23,953 nt of DNA, taken from positions 1 to 23,953 of the IMG/VR virus record IMGVR_UViG_3300025823_000017; one strand, written 5' to 3'. Below the pieces are notes generated by a model that saw nothing but the letters and a program-made list of their open reading frames with translations, ran no database searches and had not been told where the DNA came from. Origin of the DNA: a virus. Below are positions 1,105 to 5,819 of this stretch, one piece after another; the first letter of the stretch is position 1, and each line of letters begins with the position of its first letter. Made by a program: the position numbers and the translations under genes.

Positions 1105-1242
1105 TCATCCGTCAACGCGCCGGCACTCGTCCTCCGGCTGCACGTCGATCACGAGCCGGTCGACGTCGAGCGGTGCAGCCCCGAGGAAGAACCCGACGAT
1201 GCCGGAGAGCGCGAGGGCGAGCAGCAGGAGGAGAATCCGCAT
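1105..1242 (-). CDS. Small single-span membrane or secreted peptide, 45 aa
   Basis: The ATG at 1242-1240 overlaps the TAA of the RecT-like gene (TAATG), and a GAGG lies 7 nt upstream inside that gene. The product begins MRILLLLLALALSGIVGFFL, which is either a transmembrane helix or an uncleaved signal sequence. A short acidic tail with one Cys follows (VIDVQPEDECRRVDG). There is no lipobox: the only Cys is near the C terminus. Tight coupling to a recombination gene suggests co-expression early in infection. Small membrane peptides of this kind in phage early operons are often of unknown role. Possible roles such as superinfection exclusion or host-membrane interference are only guesses. Confidence 0.6.
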   Translation of the reverse strand: MRILLLLLALALSGIVGFFLGAAPLDVDRLVIDVQPEDECRRVDG

Positions 1243-2381
1243 TAGAATGCCTCACCGCGCGCCATCGCGATCTTGGCGAGGTCCGCCTCCGCCCGGCCGA
1301 TCAGGTGCATCCAGAGGTCCGACACCGTCGGAGCTCCGAGCTTCTTCACGACCGCGACCAGAGTCGCATCGCCGGCGCCGGCGCCGAAGAGTTCTGTCGC
1401 CTTCGCCCGCAGCCGTGCCTCCTGCTCCGCGTCGATCGTCGGCGGCTCCTCGCCCGGAGGCGTCCAGGATTCGACCGCGGACAACAGGTCCCCGAGCTTC
1501 GATGACGGCGTGTCCGATGCGCCGGTGAATCCGATCGCCGCGCAGCAGGACTTCGCGACCCCGGGCCAGTTCTCCGGATCGACGCCGCACAGCTCGAGAC
1601 GCGCGCGTACCGCCTGCTGAATCGTCTCGAGGGCCGTCGCGCTCTTCGCGATCGGAGGATCGTAGTCGTCGACGCTCGCCGGCTTGTCTGCGCTCTTCGA
1701 CACGCTCTTCTTCGCGCTCTTCTTCGCCGGCTTCTCCGACGGCGCCGACGGTCTCCGGGTCGGCGTCACGTCGATCGGGGTCACGCCGTCGTCCGCGAGC
1801 GCAGCGCCGAGCTCCTCGGCGGTGTAGACGACACCGCCGGCGGCGTCGGGGCAGAACGACCGGACACCCTCGGTCATGGCCCGCGCGAAGAGCATCGCGC
1901 GCGGATAGCGTTGCCAGTTCTGCTTGTTGGCGAGGCCGGCGCGCTTCGCGTCCTCGAGTGTCCACTCGACGGATCCGACCGACTCACCGCGCTCGAAGAA
2001 CTCGATCTCGCAGCGTTCGTTCGACCGCTCGCGGACGCGGTAGTCGTAGCGGCCGCTCTTCTTGACGTTCGCAGCGATTGCGGTCGCGGCCGCCGTCGGC
2101 TTGCCCTCGACGATGTGGATCTCGGCCAGGGCGCGCACCGGACCGATCCCCATCTCGCGGCCGGCGAGCATCTTCACGACGGCCTGCGATGCGTCGCGGA
2201 CATCCTTGTAGTACCCGCTCGCGGCGCAGGCCGTCGCGACCCGCTCGATCTCGTCGAGGGTCGAGAGCACGAGCTCGCCGGCGATCGTCGATACCGCCGG
2301 CAGCATCGACTGACGCTCGGCCACGCCCATCGGCCGCACGACGCCATCGCTATCGGGCTTCACTACTTCGAGGTCGCTCAT
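1242..2381 (-). CDS. RecT-like single-strand annealing protein, 379 aa
   Basis: The ATG at 2381-2379 overlaps the upstream gene's TGA (ATGA) and has GGTGAG 7 nt before it. Residues ~50-195 carry a pattern I associate with phage RecT-like ssDNA-annealing proteins: QAVVKMLAGREMGIGPVRAL, EIHIVEGKPTAAATAIAANV, SGRYDYRV, EIEFFERG, then KQNWQRYPRAMLFARAMTEG and VVYTAEELG near 184-192. Such proteins anneal complementary ssDNA during phage recombination, usually with an exonuclease partner; none is visible here. A Lys/Ser/Ala-rich linker (~212-236) separates a C-terminal helical region (~250-379). Longer upstream starts give Arg-rich shadow sequence. The family call rests on remembered motif similarity, not a search. 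Confidence 0.7.
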   Translation of the reverse strand: MSDLEVVKPDSDGVVRPMGVAERQSMLPAVSTIAGELVLSTLDEIERVATACAASGYYKDVRDASQAVVKMLAGREMGIGPVRALAEIHIVEGKPTAAATAIAANVKKSGRYDYRVRERSNERCEIEFFERGESVGSVEWTLEDAKRAGLANKQNWQRYPRAMLFARAMTEGVRSFCPDAAGGVVYTAEELGAALADDGVTPIDVTPTRRPSAPSEKPAKKSAKKSVSKSADKPASVDDYDPPIAKSATALETIQQAVRARLELCGVDPENWPGVAKSCCAAIGFTGASDTPSSKLGDLLSAVESWTPPGEEPPTIDAEQEARLRAKATELFGAGAGDATLVAVVKKLGAPTVSDLWMHLIGRAEADLAKIAMARGEAF

Positions 2382-3718: not shown

Positions 3719-4435
3719 ATGGATGTGACCACCTGGGGGGTGGGGTTGGGACGCAAGCAGTACCCGAGCGACAAGCGCCGCTGGTTTCGCGTCATGGAGG
3801 ACATCCTTGACGATCCGAAGCTCGGCCGCCTCGATCTGGCGGACCTCGGCCTCTACGTGAAGCTGCTCGCAGTCCTCAATCGGCAGAAGTCGCGAGACGG
3901 AAAAGCGACTCTCGACAGGTTCGCGGCCTGCGCGGTAGCGCGCCGTGAGCGCTTCGCCTACGCCCGGCCGGCGTTCGACCGGCTGGCTGCCGGCGGACTT
4001 CTACGGGTCTCGTACGGAGACGGCACCATAACGTATCACGTTCTCAAGTGGTCGGAATTACAGGGATTCACTCCGTTGGAACTCCGACAGGAGTCCGTCC
4101 AAACTCCGTCTACTACCCCTACCCCTACCCCTACCCCTACCAAACCCCCCCTAACCCCCCCGACAAGCGGGGGGGGACCCGGGGGGATTTTCGATCAGGA
4201 ACCCCACGATCCGCTCTCGGATCCGGATCGGGCCCCGGGCACGAGTCCAGACCCGAAGCGCGCGCCACCCGAGGGGTGGGGATTCACCGACGAGCCGGAG
4301 AGCTGGCCGGACCCCGACCGGAGCTCGATGCGCGTGCGGGCGCGGCGCGCCGCCGAGGAGGCCGAGCGGGAAGCACGACGCCGGCAACGCAGTGAGCGGC
4401 GCGAATTGCGTGCTGCCGGGAGGACGAGTCCATGA
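3719..4435 (+). CDS. Replisome-organiser-like replication initiator, 238 aa
   Basis: The N-terminal ~115 residues resemble phage replisome-organiser/replication-initiator winged helices: RRWFRVMEDILDDPKLGRLD, then LYVKLLAVLNRQKSRDGKAT, ending in a wing (GGLLRVSYGDGTITYHVLKW). A Thr/Pro/Gly linker (~129-156) follows, then an acidic Pro-rich part and a highly basic helix (~203-234). Such proteins bind the origin and recruit the helicase with a loader, here the next gene, which overlaps by 4 nt (ATGA). The ATG at 3719 is 3 nt after the previous stop and lacks a clear ribosome site. A TTG start near 3747, behind a G-rich stretch, is a possible alternative. Confidence 0.65.
   Translation: MDVTTWGVGLGRKQYPSDKRRWFRVMEDILDDPKLGRLDLADLGLYVKLLAVLNRQKSRDGKATLDRFAACAVARRERFAYARPAFDRLAAGGLLRVSYGDGTITYHVLKWSELQGFTPLELRQESVQTPSTTPTPTPTPTKPPLTPPTSGGGPGGIFDQEPHDPLSDPDRAPGTSPDPKRAPPEGWGFTDEPESWPDPDRSSMRVRARRAAEEAEREARRRQRSERRELRAAGRTSP
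4114..4186. repeat. TACCCC hexamer repeat with C7/G8 inverted runs (G-quadruplex-prone)
   Basis: TACCCC is repeated four times in a row at 4114-4137. It is followed by two runs of seven C (4145-4151 and 4155-4161), a GACAAGC spacer, then eight G (4169-4176) and six G (4181-4186). The minus strand therefore reads GGGGTA four times, a strong G-quadruplex pattern. The C7 and G8 runs can form a GC-only hairpin. All of it lies in the linker-coding part of the initiator gene. Confidence 0.9.
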
Positions 4436-5007
4436 CCCCGCTGTTCTCCCAGAAGCTCCGCTCGCTGCTCGAGCTCCACGGAACGCCCTCCGACGATCTC
4501 GAGGCGCTGGTGCCGCACTACGTGGCGGCCTGCGAGGACATCCCGGTCACGGCGTTTTTCTCGGCCTGCGCCGAGCTCGAGCGGACCTGGACGCTCGGCC
4601 GGCGGCCGAAGCCGGGCGACATCCGCGACGCGGCGAATCGCCTGCAGCAGCGTGAGAACGAGCGCGGCGACGACCGCAAGAGAACCGACCAGCAAGACCT
4701 CGCGCGAGAGCGCGCGCGGGTCGAGCGGCAGGTGGGCTCGGGCGAACGTCGGTACTACGTGGAGCTCGTCGTCAACGGCGTCCGCGGCGAGGTCGGGTTG
4801 CCCCCGTACGAGATCCCGCACGACTGGCCGTGCTGCACCGTGGCCTCGCTGGTCGAGGAATGGCAGTCCAAGTGGTCCGCCGCTCGCAGCGAGTATCGGC
4901 AGCTAATTGAGACGAATCCATCACTCGCGGATGTGCTCGGTGGCGCGCTCGGTCTGCGTTCCGCCGTACCCGCGCGACAGGAGGCGTCAGACGATGTTCC
5001 GTTCTGA
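4432..5007 (+). CDS. Putative helicase-loader-like replication protein with SSB-like C-terminal tip, 191 aa
   Basis: The ATG overlaps the initiator stop (ATGA). Residues ~4-70 are helical, with the pattern HYVAACEDIPVTAFFSACAE then RRPKPGDIRDAANRL. This resembles phage helicase loader/inhibitor proteins of the G39P type, in which short helices end before a 'PKPGDI'-like turn. A charged Arg/Glu/Asp stretch (~73-102) follows, then a mixed domain (RYYVELVVNGVRGEVGLPPY) and a helical segment. The last residues, SDDVPF, match the acidic tip of bacterial single-strand-binding proteins, which docks on many replication and repair enzymes. No phage helicase is seen here, so it would act on the host helicase. 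The loader role is an inference from position and pattern. Confidence 0.5.
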   Translation: MTPLFSQKLRSLLELHGTPSDDLEALVPHYVAACEDIPVTAFFSACAELERTWTLGRRPKPGDIRDAANRLQQRENERGDDRKRTDQQDLARERARVERQVGSGERRYYVELVVNGVRGEVGLPPYEIPHDWPCCTVASLVEEWQSKWSAARSEYRQLIETNPSLADVLGGALGLRSAVPARQEASDDVPF

Positions 5008-5263
5008 GGGGGGCGATTGGGCGTCCGTGCGGTGCGTCTCGTGCGGAGATTGTTTCGAGATCCGGGAGCGGCCGCGGCAGGGATGGAGGCTCCATCGGTG
5101 CGCCGACTGCGCGGCCGCGATCCACTCCCGGCAGAGGCAGTGCGCCGACTGCGCGGCCGCGATCCACTCCCGGCAGACGGCCGCGCCGGCGTTGGCCGGC
5201 GGCGAGGTCGTCAACCTCCGGGCCCCGGTCGATGCAAGCGGTCAGCGATGCGCATTGCACTGA
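4994..5263 (+). CDS. Zinc-ribbon-like protein with duplicated CxxC segment, 89 aa
   Basis: The ATG at 4994 has AGGAGG 9 nt upstream, inside the end of the loader gene (14-nt overlap). Two CxxC pairs, CVSC near residue 14 and CADC near residue 36, define a zinc ribbon. A further CADC comes from an exact internal duplication (CADCAAAIHSRQ twice, 14 residues apart). A Gly/Val segment and a final C follow. Small zinc ribbons of this kind are common in phage replication modules and may bind nucleic acid or protein. The extra CxxC could make a second metal site or simply be neutral. The real family is unknown to me. Confidence 0.6.
   Translation: MFRSEGGDWASVRCVSCGDCFEIRERPRQGWRLHRCADCAAAIHSRQRQCADCAAAIHSRQTAAPALAGGEVVNLRAPVDASGQRCALH
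5098..5177. repeat. 42-bp tandem duplication in the zinc-ribbon gene
   Basis: The segment from 5098 repeats from 5140. The first 38 bp of each copy are identical and the last few differ. The 42-bp period keeps the frame and adds 14 residues, including a CxxC pair. The near-identity points to a recent event. Confidence 0.95.
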
Positions 5264-5442
5264 TGGTCGTCGCGTTGCTCCTGGCCGGACTCTTCGCGGC
5301 TTCGATCGCGTTCGTCGGCGTGCTCGCCTGGGGCGTGTCCCGCGCGGATCGGGACGCGCAGCGGGAGTCTGCGCTCGACTCCGTGGGCGCCGATCTCGAT
5401 CGCCACGTCGTCGCGGACCTGGTCTCCGAGGTGCGCCGGTGA
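5248..5442 (+). CDS. Small membrane protein, 64 aa
   Basis: The start is ATG 5248, overlapping the zinc-ribbon gene by 16 nt; the ribosome site is weak, so coupling is likely. Residues ~4-30 form one long hydrophobic helix (IALMVVALLLAGLFAASIAF onwards), followed by a charged cytoplasmic-type tail (SRADRDAQRE, then helical). It resembles the 45-aa membrane peptide of the leftward operon only in general layout. It sits between replication genes and overlaps the RusA start by 1 nt (TGATG). The function is unknown. Confidence 0.6.
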   Translation: MRIALMVVALLLAGLFAASIAFVGVLAWGVSRADRDAQRESALDSVGADLDRHVVADLVSEVRR

Positions 5443-5819
5443 TGGGCGGCGAGGCGTACGCGCATACGTTCCGCTTCGCCGCGCCGCTGCCGAAGCTTCA
5501 GGCGGGCAAGGGGCACTGGCGAGCTGTGCATGCGGAGCGCCAGGGTTGGCACCGGCGCGTCGCCGAAGCGGTGATGGTCGAGCGAGCCAGGCCGAAACTA
5601 ACACTCCAACGCGCCCGGATCGTCTGCACGCGGCATTCATTCGCCCAACCTGACTTCGAGAATCTCGCGCACTCGTTCAAAGCGTTGCTCGACGGATTCG
5701 TGAAGTGTGGCGTGCTGCAGGACGACAACCCGCTCGTGCTAGTCGATCAGGAGTACCGATGGGAGCCGGCACCGCGCGGTGGTTCGTTCCTCACCGTGCT
5801 GATCGAGGAAATCCAATGA
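5442..5819 (+). CDS. rusA: RusA-family Holliday-junction resolvase, 125 aa
   Basis: The start is ATG 5442, with GAGGTG about 8 nt upstream. Length and layout match RusA-type endonucleases, which cut four-way junctions before packaging. The signature region is QPDFENLAHSFKALLDGFVK followed by CGVLQDDNPLVLV: D71, then the conserved N74, D84, and D94/D95. In the E. coli enzyme the metal-binding residues are aspartates in a DPDN pattern and a later DD. Here the second position is Glu (E73), a conservative change. The C terminus is a beta strand (SFLTVLIEEI). It lies in the replication/recombination operon and overlaps the next gene by 4 nt (ATGA). Confidence 0.85.
   Translation: MGGEAYAHTFRFAAPLPKLQAGKGHWRAVHAERQGWHRRVAEAVMVERARPKLTLQRARIVCTRHSFAQPDFENLAHSFKALLDGFVKCGVLQDDNPLVLVDQEYRWEPAPRGGSFLTVLIEEIQ

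Follow-up and report, generated by a model that had tools for sequence, protein, structure and literature searches.

A helicase-loader-like phage protein with an SSB-type tip at its C-terminus

The DNA analysed here (the window, an IMG/VR virus record of 23,953 bases that belongs to a class said to consist frequently of fragments) encodes a 191-aa protein (ORF 4432-5007, plus strand) whose translation ends in RQEASDDVPF. The last six residues, SDDVPF, have the make-up of the C-terminal tip of bacterial single-strand DNA-binding protein (SSB-Ct), with acidic residues and then hydrophobic-P-F as the very end of the chain, while the N-terminal domain is predicted to resemble phage helicase loaders. 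DDxPF ends are rare on phage ORFs, yet far more frequent than expected by chance, and their carriers are for the most part DNA-metabolism proteins, other phage replication proteins among them. We regard as evenly balanced the reading in which the protein is a loader of the G39P/lambda P kind whose flexible tail docks the SSB-Ct pocket and would thus recruit a partner to the phage origin. The parts of the protein and the signals at its end are as follows.

4432-5007, plus strand: helicase-loader-like 191-aa protein with an SSB-type C-terminal tip (translation, coding score, predicted fold)
4432-4734, plus strand: residues 1-101, predicted four-helix N-domain with resemblance to G39P/lambda P-type loaders (AF2, Foldseek against BFVD, VIA)
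4741-4947, plus strand: residues 104-172, low-confidence model of a beta-hairpin and two helices, for which no fold match was obtained (models)
4948-5004, plus strand: residues 173-191, tip-bearing tail modelled as coil and probably disordered (block pLDDT 32-37, two models)
4979-4984, plus strand: AGGAGG, Shine-Dalgarno-like, 9 nt ahead of the ATG at 4994 and within the Q-E-A codons of the loader (sequence)
4987-5004, plus strand: SDDVPF tip, SSB-Ct-like, with the stop codon at 5005-5007 (translation)

The tip and the occurrence of DDxPF ends in phages

An earlier note on this DNA had placed an SDDVPF end at 4983-5007, which the translation confirms to within about one codon. When all six frames were scored by the codon usage of the other genes in the window, the loader frame was the best of six in every stretch tested. 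It reached +3.4 bits over 4882-5004, with the other five frames at -2.7 or below; because the loader frame scores best over this stretch, the tip is unlikely to be the product of a wrong frame, and such an origin was rejected. The third-position GC content drops over the last 40 or so codons of the loader, to 0.60-0.63 in 30-codon windows starting from 4882 and 4927.

Given the amino-acid composition of the window, the chance per ORF end is 5.5e-6 for DDxPF and 2.6e-5 for [DE][DE]xPF. In a set of 5,798 ORFs from 175 terminase-anchored phage or prophage loci (distinct closed six-frame ORFs of at least 100 aa, not curated genes), three ended in DDxPF, against 0.032 expected, and four in [DE][DE]xPF. 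Eleven other arrangements of D, D, P and F around x were counted in the same ORFs; ten were absent and one occurred once. The three DDxPF carriers are an SSB, a DnaB-like helicase and a DNA methylase, and the fourth ORF with a [DE][DE]xPF end is a RecT. Within their prophage or phage loci, the DnaB-like helicase (L036, 1-1518) ends in DDDDVPF, the methylase, of the N6/N4 type (L052, 584-1906), in DDAPF, and RecT (L169, 2814-3797) in EEDPF.

A pattern scan of IMG/VR with GAYGATGTNCCNTTYTGA gave at least 119 matches; the pattern requires an ATG across the D-V codons, and the scan is a measure of enrichment, not of frequency. Among the 119 matches listed, 113 of the DDVPF-TGA sequences terminate an in-frame ORF of at least 60 aa, compared with 1,015 of 13,702 random TGA triplets from the same loci (7.4%). 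These 113 ORFs, from the matches listed as L179-L297, include replication proteins and SSBs. The largest sequence cluster holds 44 of the 113 listed ORFs, and all ten of its members that were scanned match phrog_44, single strand DNA binding protein. A scan of 77 of the 113 as a set, which yields counts and not members, gave 19 matches to Pfam SSB, together with matches to DnaB-like helicase, primase/helicase and primase families. Ten of the larger ORFs were scanned singly: a DnaB-like helicase, a primase/helicase, a primase, a reverse transcriptase, a polymerase processivity factor and an SSB were matched once each, two ORFs matched families without known function, and two matched nothing.

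On phage ORFs a DDVPF end thus seldom arises by accident, and it is not restricted to SSBs; such ends behave as a real, selected-looking feature of phage DNA-metabolism proteins. The tip had been called unusual for a loader, which holds for the 31 loaders sampled (see below) but not for phage replication proteins in general, on which an SSB-type tip is not unusual. Another type of acidic end, similar to the SSB tip but with I in place of F, recurs near the terminase: large ORFs in L121, L122-L124, L126 and L131 end in DELDDLPI, HEHEALPI, QEHEALPI or DEDADLPI, and the VapE-like ORF of L122 shares its end with those of L123 and L124.

A rather doubtful but serious alternative is that the loader is real and its tip incidental, with the final residues owed to chance and to the start signals (AGGAGG, ATG) of the following ORF and no SSB-like function. 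The 3' end of the loader overlaps this ORF (ATG 4994) by 14 nt, the tip codons lie in the overlap, and AGGAGG is well placed. The overlap makes a chance D-V likelier, since the probability of DDVPF is 9.9e-6 with the overlapping ATG fixed, compared with 4.1e-7 without overlap (1.2e-6 for DD[ILVM]PF without overlap). However, P and F are not dictated by the overlap, the absolute probability remains near 1e-5 per gene, and the gene status of the next ORF is itself unsettled. An incidental origin also fits poorly with the listed phage matches to DDVPF and stop, nearly all of which are ORF ends, and with the identified carriers, which are mainly DNA-metabolism proteins.

Predicted fold and family searches

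The AlphaFold2 model built from the single sequence has an N-domain of four helices (residues 3-15, 20-33, 39-52 and 61-101) with block pLDDT of 70-90; after residue 101, pLDDT in the model of the whole protein is below 50. In a Foldseek search of BFVD the top match, and the only one at E <= 0.001, was gp57 of Gordonia phage Ashertheman (E 9.7e-4, probability 1.00), and the best 50 of its 289 matches include 14 that bear the names G39P loader, replisome organizer, replication protein P or helicase loader; taken over the full length of the model, TM-scores are low, the top match having 0.36 and 0.32. VIA ranked first in the PDB the lambda P loader solved with E. coli DnaB (9oa1, chain Y), which aligns to 74 residues of the N-domain with an rmsd of 2.8 and a Z of 7.4 (5.6 for the next row), a value that for a helical bundle possibly reflects just a common arrangement and is inconclusive by itself. 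The likeness to lambda P is confined to residues 2-75, with 14% identity and a Z within the range of common helical arrangements; Foldseek against the PDB gave nothing at E <= 0.001 and placed the same chain (9oa1_Y) third, at E 1.7.

In family-model searches the 191-aa protein matched no family of Pfam or NCBIfam and reached no E below 0.13 with any PHROG, and a sequence search of the PDB gave a single match at E 2.3, taken as chance. Neither PF11417 nor a loader profile was matched by its sequence, an HMM built from the N-domains of 11 actinophage loaders scored it at 2 bits, and the pairwise alignment with Ashertheman gp57 (E 0.010 over 46 residues) was not significant. Since its sequence similarity to loaders is not significant, we call the protein loader-like and leave it outside the PF11417 family; the name reflects predicted fold and gene order. 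A helical N-terminal loader domain is predicted by the AF2 model of residues 1-101, the names of the BFVD matches and the first rank in VIA, and the helicase-loader-like label of the earlier note is supported for this domain by predicted fold and gene order.

The low-confidence model of the C-terminal half alone has one hairpin and two helices, and a structure search with it returned no fold match. The last 18-19 residues are coil with block pLDDT of 32-37, which is a weak sign of disorder, as the entire C-terminal half, modelled with no alignment, scores low. A buried C-terminus is not predicted: the tip lies on a stretch modelled, at low confidence, as coil rather than packed.

The suggestion of a divergent single-strand DNA-binding protein, the tip being its ordinary SSB-Ct, is not supported. 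It draws on an SSB-type end on a small protein of a replication/recombination region, on the SSB-like nature of the largest DDVPF cluster (the 44 of 113 listed ORFs with ten of ten scanned members in phrog_44) and on the beta-hairpin predicted in the C-terminal half. The N-terminal half, on the contrary, is all-helical and loader-like, SSB families were absent at E <= 1 in Pfam and PHROGs and at E <= 5 in NCBIfam, and the model, poor in the C-terminal half, has two strands at low confidence rather than the five-stranded barrel of an OB fold. An SSB identity was rejected on the absence of a family match and the all-helical N-terminal half, and we consider it very improbable.

The long helix of residues 61-101 is rich in arginine, and the tail of the same protein is acidic and modelled as coil. 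Both features are compatible with the tip acting within the loader complex, where it would fold onto the DNA-binding surface of the loader or the helicase, autoinhibit loading and recruit nothing. Direct evidence for this is lacking, and the precise DDxPF end, as opposed to a generic acidic tail, suggests a hydrophobic-acidic docking pocket of the kind in which the DDxPF end of SSB-Ct docks; autoinhibition appears improbable.

Gene neighbourhood

The loader is preceded by an initiator-like ORF and followed by a Cys-rich ORF and a RusA-like resolvase, and a RecT-like protein is encoded on the opposite strand.

1242-2342, minus strand: RecT-like ssDNA annealing protein (phrog_561, E 5.7e-32), a possible in-phage partner of the tip; the coordinates are those of the stretch scanned, and the ORF extends upstream, with an in-frame Met 13 codons further
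3719-4435, plus strand: initiator-like 238-aa protein directly upstream of the loader, with a 4-nt overlap, ATGA (phrog_3171 replication initiation, E 0.064; synteny)
4994-5263, plus strand: Cys-rich (zinc-ribbon-like) 89-aa ORF (zinc-ribbon matches weak, below cut-off)
5442-5819, plus strand: RusA-like Holliday junction resolvase (phrog_34, E 7e-10)

The loader thus lies beside a putative replication initiator in a replication module, in an order similar to that of phage Lucky10, where initiator, loader and RusA are consecutive (the initiator is named so in RefSeq and as an HTH protein in GenBank). In Ashertheman the order is RecT, initiator, loader, with a RuvC-like resolvase ten genes further; the gene before gp57 is a replication initiation protein in the RefSeq record and hypothetical in the GenBank record. 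The 50 phage records examined that hold a gp57 relative include some GenBank/RefSeq pairs. The match is annotated as a helicase loader in 14 of these records and as a lambda P-like replication organizer in one, and 16 records annotate a replication initiator as its overlapping neighbour. The assignment of 3719-4435 as an initiator comes from weak hits, which include an RWF+V...PK motif in common with Ashertheman gp56 (pairwise E 0.013).

In its predicted helical N-domain and its position after the initiator, the protein is like SPP1 G39P (PF11417, Inhibitor_G39P) and the actinophage loaders (Lucky10 gp64, Ashertheman gp57), but it differs from them in having no significant sequence similarity and in carrying an SSB-type tip. 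The replication genes of SPP1 are described as encoding the organizer G38P, the loader G39P, the helicase G40P and an SSB replaceable by host SsbA, along with G44P, a resolvase of the RusA family (PMC5615212). RusA lies close to the loader in Lucky10 as well, and SPP1 too has organizer, loader and RusA-family resolvase (PMC5615212). No helicase gene was found among the 18 ORFs of the window, possibly a fragment, that were scanned against PHROGs, and therefore the target of loading would presumably be host DnaB.

It is not settled whether the Cys-rich ORF 4994-5263 is a gene: its own frame is the best of six by codon usage, yet negative (-4.8), and no match to it was found in phages. An exact 42-nt tandem duplication within it (5098-5177) doubles the CADCAAAIHSRQ unit and represents a recent duplication or an assembly artefact. 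Another repeat, a 78-nt unit present 2.5 times, occupies positions 1-197 at the extreme left end of the contig and is possibly an assembly end effect. Within the initiator-like ORF, CTACCC is repeated 4.8 times with no mismatch at 4113-4141 and encodes PTPTPT. By analogy with lambda O, in which the origin iterons lie inside the initiator gene, this array could possibly represent origin iterons. The three closest terminase relatives (L002, L003 and L004, 66-68% identity) are on contigs that start within about 0.5 kb upstream of terS, and perhaps a cos end lies near these starts.

Relatives and possible role of the tail

The tip is absent from all 31 loaders sampled, and none of these ends in PF. 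Eleven of them are actinophage loaders drawn from 11 of the 50 records with gp57 relatives, and 20 are PF11417 ORFs from 19 genomes, found in slightly overlapping sets of 24, 391 and 398 genomes; all 31 are distant relatives, at the level of fold or family, with different C-terminal halves. Homologues without the DDxPF end, which the earlier note had named as evidence against a function, are thus found at a distance (0/31 with the tip), while the collections searched yielded no close one.

Back-translated patterns of the 191-aa protein found no homologue in IMG/VR, and tblastn against 50,697 phage records at E <= 10 gave 17 records, all at E 2-9 and regarded as chance; those inspected, one per kind, were a Bacteroides hypothetical protein and a Pseudomonas locus beside a lysozyme gene. 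The protein likewise had no homologue in a plasmid collection, in the 16 contigs behind the first terminase loci or among the ORFs from the 175 terminase-anchored loci. In 296 genomes of the class of a Frankia MAG, partial matches of at most 19.9 bits occurred in eight and were taken as chance. Neighbour searches of IMG/VR with the initiator, RecT and HTH proteins, as well as a terminase-based contig scan, yielded no relative; a search with RusA gave one locus with different neighbours, in which none of the 14 plus-strand ORFs listed ends in PF. PF11417 was absent from 50 records searched for it, and phrog_2289 from the 296 genomes, the latter result being uninformative as the controls gave no match either. 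The loader HMM recognised no loader among the 77 of the 113 DDVPF ORFs scanned with it but also misses the 191-aa protein itself and so excludes nothing, and no loader was recognised by eye in the first 110 residues of 27 DDVPF ORFs outside the largest cluster, which is a weak check. The combination of a loader-like domain with an SSB-type tip is known from one sequence only, with no close relative in the collections searched; this single example, like the absence of the tip from the 31 distant loaders, is in keeping with an incidental tip.

The proposed recruiting role of the tail, which we prefer to an incidental tip, can be outlined as follows. The predicted fold and the gene order suggest that the N-domain would hold a host DnaB-type helicase and deliver it to the complex that the initiator, product of the preceding gene, assembles at the origin. 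The DDVPF end on its flexible tail would dock the pocket normally taken by the C-terminus of host SSB. Candidate partners, we infer, would be host DnaG, PriA, chi or RecO, or the RecT-like annealing protein of the phage, and the effect would be to bring the partner to the phage origin during helicase loading.

The bacterial SSB hexapeptide is DDDIPF (PMC5872125), and its described partners include DnaG (PMC5872125), RecO and PriA (PMC5928155), and chi (PMC6783573). The end studied here shares with it D-D-hydrophobic-P-F at the extreme C-terminus and a tail modelled as coil, but has V for I and S for the first D, and its carrier is loader-like, with no OB fold detected. In phage HK620 the SSB tail NDYPPF is described as required for recruiting the annealing protein Sak4 (PMC5928155). 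The phage of the window also has an annealing protein, RecT-like, besides an SSB-type tip, although the carrier of the tip is an SSB in HK620 and loader-like here. T7 gp4, a helicase whose acidic tails are described as contacting basic patches on gp5 (PMC12593628), offers a parallel for a non-SSB replication protein with an acidic C-terminal tail that docks a partner, as the tail of the loader-like protein would; gp4, however, is a helicase and not a loader, and its partner is the phage's own polymerase.

Within the literature searched by titles and abstract openings, a coverage that leaves most subscription papers outside, no description of SSB-tail mimicry on a helicase loader was found, and a loader-like protein with an SSB-type tip is apparently new. 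More tentatively than the docking and recruitment as such, one could hypothesise that the loader mimics the SSB tail and captures host primase, PriA, clamp-loader chi or the phage annealing protein while placing the host helicase, SSB-type tips being a portable module on phage helicases, primases, processivity factors and loaders.

If the tip works in this way, a phage loader would directly use the SSB interaction hub, helicase loading would be coupled to the recruitment of primase or a restart factor, and a short peptide would become available for study. One small non-SSB protein would then combine helicase loading with the recruitment of downstream enzymes. Perhaps more widely useful is the DDxPF end as a marker open to checking, by which some non-SSB phage replication proteins that may use the same pocket could be recognised.
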